From Coriobacteriia bacterium (lineage in GTDB: Bacteria > Actinomycetota > Coriobacteriia > Anaerosomatales > Anaerosomataceae): a stretch of DNA of 53,146 bases. Both the position numbers and the translations under genes were made by a program. Below the pieces are notes generated by a model. That model had not been told where the DNA came from. It worked only from the letters and a program-made list of their open reading frames with translations, and searched no databases. Below, one piece after another: positions 9,569-19,640 of the stretch; position 1 is the first letter of the stretch; each line of letters opens with the position of its first letter. The DNA lies in the NCBI GenBank assembly GCA_030655755.1, contig JAUSOQ010000021.1, positions 1 to 53,146 on the forward strand. Direction: 5' to 3'.

Positions 9569-9635
9569 CCGTTTATCCCGTTATTCGTCCGTTTAGCTCT
9601 TGCATAAACCGTTAGTCATCACTAGCTTCCGTTAA
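9569..9635. repeat. phased array of five CCGTTWA repeats
   Basis: CCGTT followed by T/A-rich bases occurs at 9569, 9578, 9589, 9609 and 9629, all in the same orientation. The spacings are 9, 11, 20 and 20 bases, i.e. one, one, two and two helical turns. The last copy overlaps the stop codon of the Crp-type gene. It looks like a multimeric binding site for an activator acting on the minus-strand secreted protein gene. Confidence 0.5.
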
Positions 9636-10327
9636 TTGCTCTCAAGAAGTTGACCGAGCGCGAGCAGGTCAATGACTATCTTGCGACCCTTCGTGCCTAC
9701 TACCCCGTCTTTGCCGAGCTGTGAGATGACCCGGCTCGCAGTCTCACGAGAGGTGCCGGCCAGGGTCGCGATCTCGTAATGCGTAAGTCCTTCGATGATC
9801 GGCACACCGCTCGACTCATACGACGCGGTAGCCACATTGAGAAGCACCCTCATGACACGGTGCGTCGCGTCATGGAAGGCCATGTCCTCCAGCCGGGAGA
9901 TCATCTCCCGCACACGCCGCGAGAGCGTGCCGATGAGGGCCAATGCAAGCCTCGGCTGTAACTGAATAGCCGAGGAGAGATCCCGCGCATCGAGTGCGAA
10001 CGCCTCGACATCGGTCACGGCGATCACGTCTGCGGAACGGGGTTCAGCGTCGACCAGGCTCATCTCACCAAAATGTGCGGGAGCTTCGAGGTAGTTGAGC
10101 GCAAGTTCCTTCCCCTCGGGTGACGCAAGGGAGACCTTCACCCTGCCGGAGACGAGGAAGTACATAGCGACTCCCTGCTCGTTCTGCGTGAGGATGAAGG
10201 CACCCTTCGCATACCGTTTGAAGGTCATCATCTCGGCGAGGATAACTAGATCCTCGTCGGCAAGGTCTCCGAACATGGCGAAAGAGCGAAGCTTACCGGC
10301 TATGTATGCTCGTGATGGAGTACTCAT
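9632..10327 (-). CDS. Crp/Fnr family transcriptional regulator
   Basis: A 231-residue regulator with an N-terminal cyclic-nucleotide-type beta roll (residues about 15-125, including GRVKVSLASPEGKELALNYL and HFGEMSLVDAEPRSADVIA), a long dimer helix and a C-terminal Crp-type winged helix, HYEIATLAGTSRETASRVIS near 190. The N-terminal cysteine cluster of Fnr is absent, so an oxygen-sensing 4Fe-4S cluster is not expected. The ligand is unknown; the PRSADV segment resembles the phosphate-binding cassette of cNMP-binding proteins. It is flanked by terminators or repeats and is probably monocistronic. Confidence 0.9.
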   Translation of the reverse strand: MSTPSRAYIAGKLRSFAMFGDLADEDLVILAEMMTFKRYAKGAFILTQNEQGVAMYFLVSGRVKVSLASPEGKELALNYLEAPAHFGEMSLVDAEPRSADVIAVTDVEAFALDARDLSSAIQLQPRLALALIGTLSRRVREMISRLEDMAFHDATHRVMRVLLNVATASYESSGVPIIEGLTHYEIATLAGTSRETASRVISQLGKDGVVGTKGRKIVIDLLALGQLLESN

Positions 10328-10465: not shown

Positions 10466-13400
10466 CTACAGCTCGTTCTTGATGTACCCAAGCATCTTCG
10501 GCACGAAGTCATCCATGATCAGCGGAAGCATATTCGGCAGCAGCGCGTCCATGGTCTGTGGCAGAAGGTCCGGCATGAGGACTTCCATGTCCTCCGGCAG
10601 CGGACCGACACGCCGCGAGACCTCGGCGAGCATCGCAGGCATGACCTTCGGCATCATCGCAGGCATCATTCCGGGCATCATTCCGGGCATCATCTTACCC
10701 ATCAGCGCAAGCCCACCAGGGATCGCGCGGGCCGCCTTCATCATCGGAACCATACCCGAGGGCATCGCCTTCATCATCTCTGGCAGCATTGTCACCATGA
10801 TGTCCGTCATCGACTCCGGCTTCATGAGCCAGATGAACTTCTCGAAGTAGCCCCACATCTCGCTGGCATACGCTGTCGGGTCGGGATGAGCGATGCCGAG
10901 GCCGTCCATCGCAAGGTGCGCAAGATCGACGACCTCCATCGGGATGCCCTTCTTGGCGATAGAGTCCCGGAACTGGACCTGACAGCACGGACACAGCGCG
11001 ACCATCGCATCGGCCTCGACGGCGACCGCCTCATCCAGCCGCATCTTCCCAAGCTCGGGAGCGACCGGCGTCTCGCCAATAAGGGTAAGCACCGAACCGC
11101 AGCACAGAGCATCTTCGTGGTTGTGCTCCATCTCCACGAACTCCACGCCTGGAATCGCCTTGATGATGTCTCGTGGCGGTTCATAGTTACCCTGCGCGCG
11201 ACCCATGTGACATGAATCATGGAAGGTGAGCTTCTTGTTGACCTCATGGTCGAACTGCAGTGAGCCATCAGCGATGGCGTCAGCCACCAGCTCCGAGTAG
11301 TGCTTGACCTCGAACTCGTACTCCTCACCCCGCTCCGCCGCGAGGCTGGCGTAAAGTTCCTTCCACACCAGTCCACACGCCGGGCAGGAGGTGACGATCG
11401 TCTTAGCGCCACGTTTCCGCGCCTCAGCGGTATTGTGCAGGTAGATCTCCTCGAAGACGTCCCAACGGCCCGCCACTTTCATCGGGATGCCACAACATGC
11501 CTCTTCATCGCCCATGTAGGTGAACTCGACACCGGAACGGTCGAGCAGCTCCACTGATGCTTGAGCCACGTCTGTATTGATGAGACTCGCGGTGCAGCCC
11601 GCGAAGTACAGGATATCGGCCTTCTCCTTGATCTTCGGCTTGATCTGCTCCGGTACCCAATCGGCGCGGTGTTCCTTCTTCGCAGCCCAGATGTTGCCCT
11701 CGCCACGCAGCGAGGCGGCCATCATCTCGAATGGAGGGAACGTCATGCGCCCCTCGTCTTGGATGAGCTTGCCGCGCATGGCCATCCATGAGTGCTCCAC
11801 GGGGAGTTGCAACTGGCAACGCGTGTTACAGACTTCGCAGGTCGTGCAGACGAGGAACGTGTCGACCATGTGCTGATCGAACTTCTCGCGACCCTCGATG
11901 ACCTCTTTGAGGTACGCGTACTTGCCGCGAGGTGAGTGGCTCATCCACCCGCGAACGGAGTACTCCTCGCATGTGGGAACGCAGTATCCGCACTGCGCGC
12001 AGGCGTACGAGTAGAAGGCCACATCGGCGGGTACGCCGTTCTTCTCCTTGGTACCGACCATGTCACCGGTCGGCACTTTCGCTGCGTTGGCGATGGGCCG
12101 CACGAGCGGTTCGAACGCAAGAGCAATGCCCATGAGGGCGTTCACGGCGCCGGTACCGAGGATCTTCTTCGGGTTCATGACACCCGCCGGGTCCTTCGCA
12201 CGCTTGTACGACTCCAACGCACCGATCTTCTTCTCACCAAGGACGCTCTTGGCCTCCTGACGGAAGAACAGACCCGTTGAGTACGCCCCACCTCGGTGCT
12301 GCTTGGCGATCTTGATGACTACCAGAGACAGCGCGAACGCCAGGTTGAAGGCAAGCGTACGCTCGTCATGCGGTATGAAGCCAAGCAGAACGACCTTGTC
12401 TCCCTTTCCGAGCATTCCCTCGAGAATGAACGGCTGTTTGACCCTCTTGTCGATCTCGGCGAGAACAGCGCCCAGCTCCTCGAGCGGAACGACGACCTCT
12501 GTCGGAACGATCGACGGACCGACGCGCTTGAGGCGCATCGGTGCGAAACGCTGCTCCCACTCGTGCTCGGCCGCCTCGGCCTCCATCTCGACCCCTCCGT
12601 TGGCAGCGAGTATCGCTGCCAACGCGGTATCGATCGCACCGCAACGAGACTCCGGATACGCGATGACTGCAAGGAAGGACTCGGGCAGGTCAGGCTCGTA
12701 GCCGAGGTGTTTCAACTCATATGGATGACCGTGGCGATGAGGGATCGTCTTCTTAAGACGCACCGACTCGGGGTTCAGGAACGTCAGCGACCAGATCGGA
12801 AGCTTCTGCATCGAGATCGCTGTGAGTGCGGACTGGAGCGCACCGATCGCCGAAAAGGTCAGTAGCCGGTGTACCTCGGGCTCCAGCTTACGCAGCGCGA
12901 TCGTCACCTCGGTGATGATGCCGGTGATACCCTCGGCATCTGCTACAAGTGTCTCGAGGCCATCTCCTGTGAACTCTGCCACACTACCGTCGGGCTCTAC
13001 GACTCGTGCACCCAGCACACTCTCTTTAAACAAACCATACTCGTAGCTGCCGAAACCCGCACCGCCCTGGGCAAGCCACCCGGCAACCGTAGAGGACGGT
13101 AGTGACGAAGGGTAGAGGCGCAGGTCGAGCCCAGCTTTGTTGAGTTTCTTCTGGAGCGGCTCCCACAGCGTCCCGCCTTGCACACGAGCGGTCATCGCCT
13201 CGGCATCGATCTTAAGAACGCTACCCATAGCCGACATATCAGCGACTATCGCTCCCGGAAGCGGCAGCACACCACCATAGCCGGATGTCGACATGCCGCG
13301 CGGAACCACCGACACTCGCTCGCTTCTGGCCAGGTTGACCAGAGCCACGACTTCAGCTTCTGTCGTTGGCCTGACCACGGCTCCCGCCACACCCGTAGGC

Positions 13401-13534
13401 ATCAGGGGTTTCACCAGCTTGGGCAGAGCGCCGATGTCCGTCGAGTAGAGCTTGCGTTCGACCCGATCGGTCCTGACCCGGTCGCCGAAGATCTCTTTCA
13501 GCTGCCGTTCGACGCGCTCGTTCACTACAGACAT
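10466..13534 (-). CDS. FAD-linked oxidase fused to a Fe-S CCG-domain reductase with a methionine-rich tail
   Basis: A 1022-residue fusion of GlcD and GlcF types, like large D-lactate or 2-hydroxyacid dehydrogenases. Residues about 40-220 form the FAD-binding PCMH domain (VVPRGMSTSGYGG, QGGAGFGSYEYG) and a FAD-oxidase C domain follows. Two [4Fe-4S] motifs, CAQCGYCVPTCEEY and CTTCEVCNTRC, precede two cysteine-rich CCG modules (ACCGIPMK and LCCGSVL, plus CPCC). It likely passes electrons from a hydroxyacid to quinone or heterodisulfide-type partners. The last 116 residues hold about 26 methionines in PGMMPGMMPAMMP-type repeats, unlike the usual family. ATG at 13534 has AAAGGA upstream. The promoter carries a CsoR-type palindrome. 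Substrate unknown. Confidence 0.88.
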   Translation of the reverse strand: MSVVNERVERQLKEIFGDRVRTDRVERKLYSTDIGALPKLVKPLMPTGVAGAVVRPTTEAEVVALVNLARSERVSVVPRGMSTSGYGGVLPLPGAIVADMSAMGSVLKIDAEAMTARVQGGTLWEPLQKKLNKAGLDLRLYPSSLPSSTVAGWLAQGGAGFGSYEYGLFKESVLGARVVEPDGSVAEFTGDGLETLVADAEGITGIITEVTIALRKLEPEVHRLLTFSAIGALQSALTAISMQKLPIWSLTFLNPESVRLKKTIPHRHGHPYELKHLGYEPDLPESFLAVIAYPESRCGAIDTALAAILAANGGVEMEAEAAEHEWEQRFAPMRLKRVGPSIVPTEVVVPLEELGAVLAEIDKRVKQPFILEGMLGKGDKVVLLGFIPHDERTLAFNLAFALSLVVIKIAKQHRGGAYSTGLFFRQEAKSVLGEKKIGALESYKRAKDPAGVMNPKKILGTGAVNALMGIALAFEPLVRPIANAAKVPTGDMVGTKEKNGVPADVAFYSYACAQCGYCVPTCEEYSVRGWMSHSPRGKYAYLKEVIEGREKFDQHMVDTFLVCTTCEVCNTRCQLQLPVEHSWMAMRGKLIQDEGRMTFPPFEMMAASLRGEGNIWAAKKEHRADWVPEQIKPKIKEKADILYFAGCTASLINTDVAQASVELLDRSGVEFTYMGDEEACCGIPMKVAGRWDVFEEIYLHNTAEARKRGAKTIVTSCPACGLVWKELYASLAAERGEEYEFEVKHYSELVADAIADGSLQFDHEVNKKLTFHDSCHMGRAQGNYEPPRDIIKAIPGVEFVEMEHNHEDALCCGSVLTLIGETPVAPELGKMRLDEAVAVEADAMVALCPCCQVQFRDSIAKKGIPMEVVDLAHLAMDGLGIAHPDPTAYASEMWGYFEKFIWLMKPESMTDIMVTMLPEMMKAMPSGMVPMMKAARAIPGGLALMGKMMPGMMPGMMPAMMPKVMPAMLAEVSRRVGPLPEDMEVLMPDLLPQTMDALLPNMLPLIMDDFVPKMLGYIKNEL

Positions 13535-13606
13535 CACATAGTCCTTTCCGTCGGACAGCTATGTCCGGCGCTCCGATACGGCATACCCCTCCCGCTGGTG
13601 TGTTTC

Positions 13607-15403: not shown

Positions 15404-16618
15404 ATGGCGCATGAGGGGCATAACGCGCTGCACGACCTGCTCGCGGTCCGCGGCGTGACCCGTCGTGACTTCCTGAAGTATTGCGGCAGTATTGCCGCAG
15501 CACTCGGATTGTCCGAAACGATGGCACCTCAGATTGCCGCAGCCCTCGAAGGGGCACCTAAACTTCTGCCCACTCTCTGGCTGAACGGTGGATCTTGTTC
15601 CGGTTGTACCGAGTCCATCGCTCAAGTGGACTCCCCCGACGTGGCAACGATCGTCCTCGATTACCTGTCGACCAACTACTTCGAGACGATCATGGCTGCA
15701 GCGGGCGAACAGGCCGAGAAACAGCTATCCGACACCATCGCAGCTGGCGGCTACCTCGTCATCTACGAAGGCTCCGTCATGACCGGCCAGGATGGCAACA
15801 CCCTGCTGGTCGCAGGCAAGAAAGGCACCGAGATCCTGTCTGAGGCAGCTGCAGGTGCTGCAGCTGTCATCGCAGTGGGATCGTGCGCGGTGGATGGTGG
15901 CTGGGTCTACGGTTACCCCAACCCTGCCGAAGCCACAGGCGTCCAGGCGTGGCTGAACCACGAAGGCATCACGACGCCCGTTGTCAACCTGCCCAGCTGC
16001 CCGGTCAACCCCGAGTGGATCGTCGCCATGGTCGTCCAGCTGCTGCTGGTCGCCGGCGGCGACGTTGCCACATTCGTGGAGAAGACCGAGTGGCTCACCC
16101 GCAGCTACACCGACCGCAAGTATGGCGCCGTCGATCTGCTCATGCCAAAGGGTATCTTCGGCCAGAGCATCCACGACAACTGCCCGCGTCGCGGTCACTT
16201 CGAGAACGGTGAGTTCGTCACCGAATTCGGCAGCAAGGAAGAGGCCATGGGCTACTGCCTCTACAAGATGGGCTGCAAGGGTCCGCAGACGTTCACCAAC
16301 TGCCCCATCGTGCGGTGGAACCGCCGGACAAGCTGGTGCGTCGAAGCAGGCAGCCCCTGCATCGGTTGTGGCGGCCTGAACTGGGTCGACAACAACGCTC
16401 CGTTCTTCCACAGGCTTTCCGACATGCAGATGGGCGATGCGCTGGGCAACGTCCAACCTGGCACCGTTGGCGCGGTCGTCGGCGGCGTCGCTGCTGCCGC
16501 TCTCGTAGCACACGGTCTTGGCATGAAGGCGGCCGGTCGCGTGGGCGACGGCCCTCCAATGGAAGAGATGAAAGCCTACGATCGTAAGCGTCTCGCGAAG
16601 AAGGGAGGCGATAAATAG
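15404..16618 (+). CDS. hydA: [NiFe]-type hydrogenase small subunit with Tat signal
   Basis: A 404-residue iron-sulfur subunit that moves electrons from the Ni site to the membrane. A twin-arginine signal (TRRDFLKYCGS, residues 20-30) shows export together with the large subunit. Proximal-cluster cysteines are in GGSCSGCTES, SCAVDGGW and SCPVNP. The distal cluster uses HDNC and two further cysteines. The medial site reads NCPIVRW..SWCVEAGSPCIGC: cysteine replaces the proline of standard enzymes, so three [4Fe-4S] clusters are expected, as in [NiFeSe] hydrogenases. A C-terminal hydrophobic segment (GAVVGGVAAAALVAHGL) anchors it. ATG at 15404 follows AAGGAGG by 8 bases. Its TAG overlaps the GTG of the large subunit by one base. 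Confidence 0.93.
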   Translation: MAHEGHNALHDLLAVRGVTRRDFLKYCGSIAAALGLSETMAPQIAAALEGAPKLLPTLWLNGGSCSGCTESIAQVDSPDVATIVLDYLSTNYFETIMAAAGEQAEKQLSDTIAAGGYLVIYEGSVMTGQDGNTLLVAGKKGTEILSEAAAGAAAVIAVGSCAVDGGWVYGYPNPAEATGVQAWLNHEGITTPVVNLPSCPVNPEWIVAMVVQLLLVAGGDVATFVEKTEWLTRSYTDRKYGAVDLLMPKGIFGQSIHDNCPRRGHFENGEFVTEFGSKEEAMGYCLYKMGCKGPQTFTNCPIVRWNRRTSWCVEAGSPCIGCGGLNWVDNNAPFFHRLSDMQMGDALGNVQPGTVGAVVGGVAAAALVAHGLGMKAAGRVGDGPPMEEMKAYDRKRLAKKGGDK

Positions 16619-18294
16619 TGACACGTGCAGTCATCGACCCGGTTACCCGAATCGAAGGTCACCTTCGCGTCGAATGTGAAGTCACGGATGGTGTCGTCAA
16701 AGACGCATGGGTTTCAGGACAGTTGTACCGCGGCATGGAGACGGTCATGCTTGACCGTCAGCCTGAGGACGCGTTCTACGTCACTCAGCGTATCTGTGGC
16801 GTCTGTCCGATCTCGCACAGCCACGCGTCTTCAATGTCCACTGAAGCCGCGCTTGGCATCGCGATTCCAAACAATGCACGCCTTATCCGTAACCTGCTTG
16901 AGGCGGCACAGTTCCTGCACAGCCACATCCTGTGGTTCTACACGCTGGCTGCTCTCGACTATGTGAGCCCGATCAATGCCCTATCCGCAGACATCGCTGA
17001 CACCTACGCACTTGCGCAGGCTGCCGGTACGCGTGTCGCGGACTTCGGTGCGATCGCCAAGCGGCTCACCGCGTTCGCCGAGAACGGCCAACTGTCGTTC
17101 CTGGGCGGTCACTACTGGGACCACCCCGGCTACGTGCTCCCGCCGGAGCTCGACCTCATCGCTACCGCTCACTACCTCGAGGCTCTTGAGATGCAGGCCG
17201 TGGCAAACGAGATCGTCGCCGTTATCGGCGGCAAGTTCCCGCACCCGATGACGTCGGTTCCGGGCGGCACAGCATTCGTGCCTACCGAGCAAAAGCTCGA
17301 TGACATCCTCTTCAACTTCATCAGAGTGAAGGAGTTCATCGACACTGCGCTCATCCCGGACACCCTCGCTATCGCGCCGTTCATTCTTGAGACCACGACG
17401 TACGGCGGAGGTTGCGGCAACTTCCTGAGTTGGGGCGTCTTCGAAGCTGCGGACATGGACGCGTATAACCGCTTCCTACCACGGGGCTTCGTCACCGGTG
17501 GCCTCAAGGTCGAAGAAGTCGGCCCTGACGACGTCACCGAGTACGTCGAGCACTCCTGGTATGACTCAGCCAGTGGCCTTAACCCCTCCAAGGGTGAGAC
17601 GCACGTCAAGTTCGATGAGTACAACACAGATGCAAAGTACACCTATGGCAAGTCCGCACGCTGTAAGGAGAAGCCGGCCGAGGTCGGTCCCCTTGCACGT
17701 ATGGTCAACGCCTACGTCTACGAAGCCGGCGGAAAGAGTCTGGTCCCCGATGAGTGGGCAGGCTCGGTCCGTACTCCAAAGGCGCTCATCGACCTCACAC
17801 TCGAGGCGCTGGGCGTCGCCGGCAAGCCGGAGATCCTCGTGTCGCTGCTTGGCCGCGTAGCAGCCCGCAACCTTGAGGCAGCATACGTGGCCGACCTTGC
17901 GTTGATGTGGGTGGGCGAGCTCGTTGGAGGCATCCAGGGTGGTGACTCCGAGTTCTTCAAGGCCCGCGAGACGTTCGATGGCGCAGGCTCAGGACTCTGG
18001 GAAGCACCTCGTGGCTCCGTCGGTCACTGGATCGACATCAAGGGCAACAAGATCAAGGGCTACCAGGTCGTCGCTCCGACCACCTGGGACATCGCTCCTC
18101 GCGATGCCGCCGGCGTCCTTGGCCCGATGGAGCAGGCTCTTGTCGGCGCGCCGGTCTTCGATGTCGAGCGACCGCTTGAGATGCTCCGAATCGCCCACAG
18201 CTTCGATCCTTGAATCGGTTGTGCTGTCCACGTGGTGGACACAAAGACCGGCAAGGAAAGCACTGTGATGTCGTCGCCGATGGGGGTGATGTAG
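16618..18294 (+). CDS. hydB: [NiFeSe] hydrogenase large subunit, selenoprotein with in-frame TGA at 18211
   Basis: The catalytic subunit of a periplasm-facing uptake hydrogenase. The N-terminal Ni-binding motif RICGVCPISHSHAS (C60, C63) is intact. The conventional reading stops after AHSFDP at 18210, exactly where the C-terminal motif DPCxxCxxH should stand. Reading TGA (18211-18213) as selenocysteine gives DP-U-IGCAVH and then a 20-residue tail ending at TAG 18292-18294, one base before the cytochrome gene. The tail has the normal size of the peptide removed by the maturation protease, which is encoded downstream. Total length is 558 residues with Sec532. The GTG start has GGAGG 9 bases upstream. 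Sec in this position defines [NiFeSe] enzymes. Confidence 0.92.
18211..18250 (+). promoter_or_regulatory. bacterial SECIS-type hairpin directing Sec at TGA 18211
   Basis: Immediately after the TGA, CGGT (18216-18219) can pair with ACCG (18247-18250), TGTG (18220-18223) with CACA (18240-18243), and TCCAC (18227-18231) with GTGGA (18235-18239), closing on a GTG loop. The loop starts 18 bases after the TGA and begins with G, within the known range for bacterial SECIS elements recognised by SelB. Confidence 0.75.
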
Positions 18295-18942
18295 ATGGGT
18301 TCTCACGCACACTATCGTGAGGCACATCCGCTGGTGTTCGTCATCACCCACTGGATCAACTTGATCTGCATGGTGATGCTCGCGTTCTCGGGCTTCTACA
18401 TCCACTTCCCGTTCTTCTCTGCCGGGTTCATGGGTGTCGCCCGCGGCATGCACTTCGTCGCGATGTATGTCATCCTCATCAACCTCGTCTTCCGCATCGT
18501 CGCCGCCTTCTTCGTGAAGACCGCGAACCAACTGGAGACCCGCGAGGTCGACACCGACATCAAGAACTGGCTGCCGCAGGCCGAGAACAAGCATCAGCTG
18601 GTTGAGACGCTCAAGTACTACCTGTTCTTCCGTAAGGAAGGCGTCATCTCGGGTAAGTACGGTTCGCTCCAGAAGATCGCGTATCTGGCGACCGTGCCGC
18701 TAACGTTCATCCAGGCCTATACCGGCTTCGCGATTTACGCCCCGTTTGCGGACGCAAGTTTCCTCGCAGCTGGTACCACCCTGGTCGGCGGTCCGATGAA
18801 CATGCGGATCATCCACTACTTCGGTATGTGGGTGTTCATCCTGTTCACGATGGTCCACGCTTACCTGGCAAACATCTACAACTTCGCTCCGAGCAAGATC
18901 ATCTTCCTTTGGAAGGAGACCTTGCCGGAGGGCAAGCACTAG
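18295..18942 (+). CDS. hydC: hydrogenase cytochrome b subunit
   Basis: A 215-residue membrane protein of the Ni/Fe-hydrogenase b-type cytochrome family, which takes electrons from the small subunit and passes them to quinone. Four hydrophobic segments are visible (about 18-38, 52-72, 124-145, 160-190). Candidate heme-ligand histidines lie in FVITHWINL, ARGMHFVAMY, RIIHYFGMW and TMVHAYLAN. The ATG directly follows the TAG of the extended large subunit; GGGGGTGA serves as ribosome site within that tail. This tight junction supports the read-through model of the large subunit. Confidence 0.92.
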   Translation: MGSHAHYREAHPLVFVITHWINLICMVMLAFSGFYIHFPFFSAGFMGVARGMHFVAMYVILINLVFRIVAAFFVKTANQLETREVDTDIKNWLPQAENKHQLVETLKYYLFFRKEGVISGKYGSLQKIAYLATVPLTFIQAYTGFAIYAPFADASFLAAGTTLVGGPMNMRIIHYFGMWVFILFTMVHAYLANIYNFAPSKIIFLWKETLPEGKH

Positions 18943-19067: not shown

Positions 19068-19640
19068 ATGTCCACGCCAGAACGTGTGCTCGTCCTCGGT
19101 ATCGGTAATCCCCTCATGCTTGATGAAGGCATCGGTGTCCGGGTGCTGGAGGAGATGGACCGCCACTACACGTTCGGCGACCAAACCGAACTGGTAGACG
19201 CTGGGACTATGGGACTCGGCATGATCAACATGTTCCGAGACATCGACTTCATGCTGATCATCGACGCCATCGACGGCACCGATCATCCCGCAGGTACTGT
19301 CGTGCGCGTCTCGCCGGAGGACTTCAGCCCCAACCAGGTCTTCCACGGCCTACATGACGTCCGCTTCGTTGATGTGCTGAATTCCGCCCGTCTCATCGGT
19401 ATCGAGTTGGACGCAGAATGTGTAGGCATCCAGGTGCAGGACATGAGTCCGAAAGAGCTCACCATCGGGCTATCCGCTCCTGTAGAAGCAGCTGTCCCCC
19501 GAGCAGTAGCCGCAGCACTCACACTACTCGATGAACGGGGGATCTCGTTTAAGGAAGTCGCCGATCCCGAGTACGCTTCATTCTTCGAGCTCGTCGCGAC
19601 CTCTTACGAGGAAATGCGCGATAAGCGCCGCACGCGCTAG
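19068..19640 (+). CDS. hyaD: hydrogenase maturation endopeptidase (HyaD/HybD family)
   Basis: A 190-residue protease that removes the C-terminal peptide of the large subunit after nickel insertion. The fold's start VLVLGIGNPLMLDEGIGVRV and the Ni-contact positions (Glu in DEGIG, Asp in IIDAIDG, His in FHGLHDV) are all there. Start ATG at 19068 follows GGAGAGG by 6 bases. An upstream in-frame start at 19002 would add 22 residues without similarity. A protease of this type is only useful if the large subunit has a C-terminal extension, consistent with read-through of TGA 18211. Confidence 0.92.
   Translation: MSTPERVLVLGIGNPLMLDEGIGVRVLEEMDRHYTFGDQTELVDAGTMGLGMINMFRDIDFMLIIDAIDGTDHPAGTVVRVSPEDFSPNQVFHGLHDVRFVDVLNSARLIGIELDAECVGIQVQDMSPKELTIGLSAPVEAAVPRAVAAALTLLDERGISFKEVADPEYASFFELVATSYEEMRDKRRTR

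Follow-up and report, generated by a model that had tools for sequence, protein, structure and literature searches.

A predicted selenocysteine-containing lineage of group 1i-type hydrogenases in the order Anaerosomatales

An in-frame UGA codon in the hydrogenase large-subunit gene of a Coriobacteriia bacterium (Anaerosomatales, a little-known order of the subsurface) is, judging from sequence comparison, almost certainly decoded as selenocysteine (Sec), and the product would be a group 1i-lineage hydrogenase of uptake type, bound to the membrane and facing the periplasm. The codon, at position 18211 of the analyzed stretch of DNA (53,146 nucleotides, referred to as the window), had been assigned in an earlier note to a Sec residue acting as the terminal nickel ligand. 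This assignment is now backed by conservation of the codon, a covarying SECIS hairpin, a full set of sel genes, homologues with cysteine (Cys) at the same place and the lack of an alternative intact copy of the subunit in the genome. The window corresponds to contig C36 of an 81-contig genome of 2.13 Mb (100% complete, 1.9% contamination), whose closest named relatives are MAGs of Coriobacteriia and Actinomycetota. Hydrogenases containing Sec are valued because their product hardly inhibits H2 production and because they recover after exposure to oxygen; to our knowledge, only a small number have been described, from sulfate reducers and methanogens. The features of the window that bear on this reading are the following:

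15404-16618, plus strand: hydrogenase small subunit (TIGR00391, 287 bits, above cut-off; TAT signal model above cut-off; PF14720 and PF01058)
16618-18294, plus strand: hydrogenase large subunit (PF00374, 503 bits over all 508 positions; one internal TGA)
18211-18213, plus strand: in-frame UGA predicted to encode Sec, first ligand of the C-terminal U-x-x-C nickel site (codon conservation)
18215-18251, plus strand: predicted bacterial SECIS hairpin (fold, pair conservation and compensation in 74 Sec sequences; position as in E. coli fdhF)
18232-18291, plus strand: coding sequence of the 20-residue tail that follows the conserved histidine (sequence; tail conserved in relatives)
18295-18942, plus strand: membrane cytochrome b subunit, quinone side (PF01292, 86 bits, above cut-off)
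19068-19640, plus strand: hydrogenase maturation endopeptidase of HycI/HyaD type (TIGR00072, 104 bits, above cut-off; PF01750)

The operon order is small subunit, large subunit, cytochrome b and maturation protease, the last of these being the C-terminal processing protease already recognized downstream in the earlier note. The small subunit carries a twin-arginine signal (RRDFLK) and, within the motif SWC, a cysteine that replaces the medial-cluster proline; its frame is open from 15353, with ATG 15404 as the likelier start. The cytochrome b subunit reaches 107 bits against TIGR02125, slightly below the cut-off of 121.5. Elsewhere in the window, positions 10466-13537 of the minus strand encode a 1023-residue fusion protein resembling glycolate oxidase or heterodisulfide reductase, in which an FAD-binding oxidase is joined to 4Fe-4S domains and to CCG domains rich in cysteine; a Crp-type regulator (9632-10327) lies next to it.

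From its GTG start at 16618, the large-subunit frame runs for 531 codons to TGA 18211-18213, directly behind ...RIAHSFDP; this is the sole in-frame TGA of 16618-18294 and falls, exactly as the earlier note had it, at the first ligand of the nickel-binding motif DP-C-xxCxxH. Reading through gives DP-U-IGCAVH, the 20-residue tail and a TAG (18292-18294) adjoining the next ATG at 18295, in line with what had been noticed before, for a total of 558 residues with Sec as residue 532. The ribosome-binding site of the cytochrome b gene (GGGGGTGAT, 18282-18290) lies within the last tail codons. The N-terminal nickel-site motif RICGVC is intact, the full-length PF00374 match requires read-through of the TGA, and clear relatives with solved structures cover nearly the whole length of the subunit. 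Standard gene calling ends at TGA 18211, and automatic annotation would shorten the subunit, as had been foreseen.

Downstream of the UGA, the window forms a hairpin with an apical stem (18225-18231 paired with 18235-18241), a GUG loop (18232-18234) and a lower stem (18215-18220 paired with 18246-18251), so that the earlier claim of a hairpin at the right distance with a G in its loop holds both for the fold and for covariation across relatives. The minimum free energy of 18211-18260 is -17.6 kcal/mol, a value reached by 2 of 200 dinucleotide shuffles, and none of 500 codon-synonymous shuffles of the 36 nucleotides after the TGA was as stable (z = -3.4). With codon-synonymous shuffles, the main Sec clade has a median z of -1.7 and the Cys relatives one of -0.15 (Mann-Whitney p = 2e-6, a generous estimate because the sequences are related). 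At the gathering thresholds of Rfam, only tRNAs and no SECIS family were found in the window.

Pairing was compared across 74 distinct Sec sequences (46 + 12 + 13 + 3), with positions counted from the U of UGA. The 5' arm occupies nucleotides 15-21 and the loop G-U nucleotides 22-23 in 73 of the 74, and all 74 keep the five core stem pairs unbroken, either as 16-31 to 20-27 (register 47) or as 16-30 to 20-26 (register 46). Register 47 comprises the 46 main-clade sequences together with 13 of a second Sec type described below, and its two outer pairs display compensatory change: among the main-clade sequences, pair 15-32 is G-C in 32/46 and C-G in 14/46, and pair 14-33 is G-C in 19, C-G in 17 and A-T in 2. 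In register 46, which includes the window, 11 other sequences and HysA-like actinobacterial genes, the 3' arm is slid by one base. The valine codon of the stem is GTT in all 46 of 46 register-47 genes (14% in gene bodies) and GTC in all 12 of 12 register-46 genes. In most Cys relatives the core pairs are broken. The SECIS of E. coli fdhF shares the GGUU 5' arm and a loop G-U about 20 nucleotides past the UGA; by comparison, the stem described here has no bulged U, and its loop is GUG or CGUGNU.

The selenium machinery is present in the same genome. Each of the components whose presence was to be checked according to the earlier note (selA, selB, selD and tRNA-Sec) was found above its cut-off, and selD, yedF, selA, selB and tRNA-Sec form one cluster (L017), with SelB at 384 bits and tRNA-Sec at 69 bits; SelA, SelD and YedF likewise exceed their cut-offs in family searches. 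SelD (L017:2712-3749, G000:C77) reads MGDLGEIRLTQLSTKSG-TGA-AAKW..., with the TGA at the UxxK position and a stable hairpin after it, and is thus predicted to be itself a Sec-containing selenophosphate synthetase; a plain open frame for selD would begin 42 codons too late. The alpha subunit of formate dehydrogenase, FdhA (G000:C76:48683-50692, L146), also contains one in-frame TGA and is a probable third selenoprotein of the genome. The ends of contigs C15 and C77 (L009 and L010) share an identical stretch of 141 bases starting 4 bases before tRNA-Sec, a length that looks like an assembler word length; tRNA-Sec may thus have two different neighbours upstream, through a second gene copy, variation between strains or insertion of an element at tRNA-Sec. 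Two tRNA-Sec matches each were also seen in G011, G014 and G035.

Any suppressor could account for a single read-through TGA; a rival reading is a genome-wide reassignment or suppression of TGA in which some other amino acid, for instance Trp or Cys, is placed there. Against it, TGA closes 17 of the window's 39 long frames, the gene of G008-G011 has one TGA at the Sec site and another that terminates the frame, the genome possesses tRNA-Sec and SelB, and the SECIS is confined to genes of Sec type; we give this reading next to no probability.

By hand count, 62 of the 69 genomes of the order carry TGA at that codon, with 56-92% identity to the subunit of the window, and the same TGA recurs in 10/10 loci from an independent genome collection, a recurrence well beyond chance. 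The remaining seven genomes comprise two whose gene is cut by a contig end, two with the second Sec type only, one (G029) with a Cys form only and two with none. Conservation extends to the tail past the TGA, and in the window's own family most genes have the stop directly abutting the start of cytochrome b. In G008-G011, the hydrogenase gene (L051-L054) contains TGA twice, first as Sec with a SECIS and then as the final stop. A class-wide search revealed Sec forms in three further families (codes f17, f20 and f21) and Cys forms, with TGC or TGT at the Sec codon, in most other families with a match. Within the order, Cys paralogues occur in G017, G026, G046 and G029 and group with the Cys clade; the first three of these genomes hold Sec and Cys forms together.

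Across the order, tRNA-Sec was found in 52/69 and selB in 51/69 genomes, and among the 62 genomes that carry the TGA gene, 52 have one or both. In the other 10 of the 62, mostly incomplete, neither selB nor tRNA-Sec was found, and three near-complete ones (G005, 96%; G025, 98%; G068, 96%) also yielded no selA. Since contigs of the window's own assembly break at tRNA-Sec too, a single 5-kb locus was probably lost from these genomes during assembly or binning. G029 (99% complete) has TGC in its hydrogenase gene, and no selA, selB or tRNA-Sec was found in it; Cys codon and sel absence together are the expected partner state.

The same three near-complete relatives with a TGA gene, as well as the end point of standard gene calling, would fit a TGA that simply terminates translation and leaves a pseudogene or a shortened subunit lacking two of the nickel ligands. 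We regard this as very improbable, because a TGA shared by 62 genomes, an intact conserved tail and a covarying SECIS would not be preserved under decay, and because the genome contains no other copy of this large-subunit family. Use of a separate intact large subunit, a possibility raised in the earlier note, was checked by a PF00374 search of the genome, which recovered only this full-length group 1 subunit and no second intact member of its family. The other matches are two fragments of one 434-aa frame (a different hydrogenase type) and one weak match, leaving no same-family subunit as a substitute.

A Sec-containing subunit in this organism raises the question of its relation to the established [NiFeSe] enzymes. 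HydDB separates group 1i (Coriobacteria-type) from group 1a, to which [NiFeSe] variants belong (PMC5037454), and a 2016 study recovered the [NiFeSe] enzymes in a single clade (PMC4730141). The large subunit of the window does match both NCBI [NiFeSe] models, and it shares the Sec position and the U-x-G-C pattern with HysA of D. vulgaris; these similarities would suit a canonical HysA-type family member acquired from sulfate reducers. Its scores lie below both cut-offs (410 vs. 780 bits for NF045518 and 494 vs. 600 bits for NF033181), as do those of the Cys forms. A tree was built from 54 large subunits after masking of the Sec/Cys position, the D. vulgaris and D. gigas entries being taken from alignments. 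It unites 22 Sec rows (98/95) and places beside them, as sister clade, 13 Cys rows of the class (100/99) of group 1i type, the two being joined at 100/100. D. vulgaris HysA falls into a separate clade (100/99) with HysA-like actinobacterial genes, both Sec and Cys, and grouping the main Sec clade with HysA is rejected (AU p = 1.2e-4). Moreover, the HysA-like Sec enzyme of other Actinomycetota is a separate lineage. Thus, the earlier placement among known [NiFeSe] enzymes is not supported, a HysA-type origin is very improbable, and we have high confidence that the lineage of the large subunit stands apart from HysA; the subunit is best placed as sister of the Cys-containing Coriobacteriia-type (group 1i) hydrogenases.

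With HysA-type enzymes, represented by the structures from D. vulgaris (5jsu) and Desulfomicrobium baculatum (1cc1), the enzyme of the window has in common Sec at the same ligand from an in-frame TGA, a maturation protease and U-x-G-C; it differs in its separate clade, its scores below the family cut-offs and a membrane cytochrome b in the operon. With group 1i [NiFe] enzymes it shares the gene order, the medial cysteine and the sister-clade relationship. Cys forms of group 1i elsewhere in the class have 49-56% large-subunit identity to it and, instead of Sec and SECIS, contain TGC or TGT with no conserved hairpin.

Substitution of the medial-cluster proline by cysteine had been cited as a further sign of a [NiFeSe] enzyme. 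The cysteine is indeed present in the small subunit; as evidence for selenium it does not stand, as it also occurs in Cys-type relatives (e.g., L083, L114, L138) and the proline is kept in some second-type Sec enzymes (L131-L133). The medial cysteine was accordingly rejected as a Sec marker and is best read as a mark of the clade.

Sec at this ligand is found in other actinobacterial enzymes as well. A second Sec-type group 1 hydrogenase in Actinomycetota (L096-L099, L126-L134; mostly DPUMACxVH, 44-53% identity) has the TGA at the same ligand and the same SECIS core of 18 nucleotides (GGUUCACGUGAUUGAACC), and some of its genes reside in genomes that also hold the first type; it differs in having U-x-A-C rather than U-x-G-C, in missing the TGK-type tail and in forming its own clade (100/99). 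Because the peptide V-H-V-x-E-P alone favours GTTCA...TGAAC, the identical core in the two clades could be convergent. Uniting the two actinobacterial group 1 Sec types in one clade is rejected (AU p 2.3e-9), as is a single clade of all Sec rows (AU p 2.3e-71). In addition, L139-L141, from an actinobacterial family (code f34), encode a HysA-like Sec hydrogenase whose nearest solved structure is the D. vulgaris [NiFeSe] hydrogenase; L139 scores 740 bits against the general NCBI [NiFeSe] model, above its cut-off of 600.

Parsimony on the tree needs four Sec/Cys changes, forced by the starred branches. L111 (G093), the only gene with Cys inside the main Sec clade, lies on a long branch, reads DPCVGCSIH and retains the glycine otherwise found with Sec (U-x-G-C vs. 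C-x-A-C); it looks like a Sec-to-Cys reversal. Overall, we consider it likely that Sec at the nickel site is an order-wide and old trait of the order's group 1i-type hydrogenases, gained or lost independently of HysA, that at least three Sec lineages exist in Actinomycetota, and that the Cys forms of other Coriobacteriia may have had a Sec ancestor, a possibility alongside which the Cys of L111 with its Sec-type glycine is to be placed.

As to how the enzyme may work, we infer selenium incorporation, tail cleavage, localisation and catalytic consequences along the following lines. At UGA 18211, SelB bound to the downstream hairpin would bring Sec-tRNA-Sec, and the ribosome would proceed to TAG 18292. 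By comparison with [NiFe] maturation, the protease would then remove the tail after the histidine and close the Ni-Fe site, the small subunit would take the subunit pair outward via the Tat route, and cytochrome b would move electrons to or from a membrane carrier. The uptake direction is proposed with moderate confidence. Functional expectations derive from E. coli, where exchanging the same ligand of hydrogenase-2 for Sec enhanced proton reduction relative to H2 oxidation and where the equivalent place in hydrogenase-1 is linked to O2 tolerance (PMC11212049). By this analogy, Sec may bias the enzyme to H2 evolution and accelerate its recovery from O2; our confidence in any specific oxygen phenotype, including the better tolerance suggested earlier, is low.

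The first Anaerosomatales isolates, Anaerosoma tenue and Parvivirga hydrogeniphila, have been described with group 1i [NiFe] hydrogenases, H2-dependent growth and a small-large-cytochrome b-protease cluster; that paper nowhere uses the word selenocysteine, and its passages with "selen" considered here concern selenate and selenite (PMC9686372). Accounts in the open literature either restrict [NiFeSe] enzymes to methanogens and sulfate-reducing bacteria or call the hydrogenase of the order a plain group 1i [NiFe] enzyme. What we describe is almost certainly a real selenium form of an already known group of hydrogenases, order-wide in distribution and apparently unreported in the open literature. 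If true, it would overturn this confinement and add an order-wide lineage of Sec hydrogenases, probably with cultivated hydrogen-growing members. Wherever gene calling treats the UGA as a stop, these widespread subsurface bacteria would seem to have a truncated main H2-oxidising enzyme, cut just before its active-site ligands. The Cys paralogues of G017, G026 and G046, together with the Sec-less sister genome G029, would provide a natural experiment on selenium at the nickel site.
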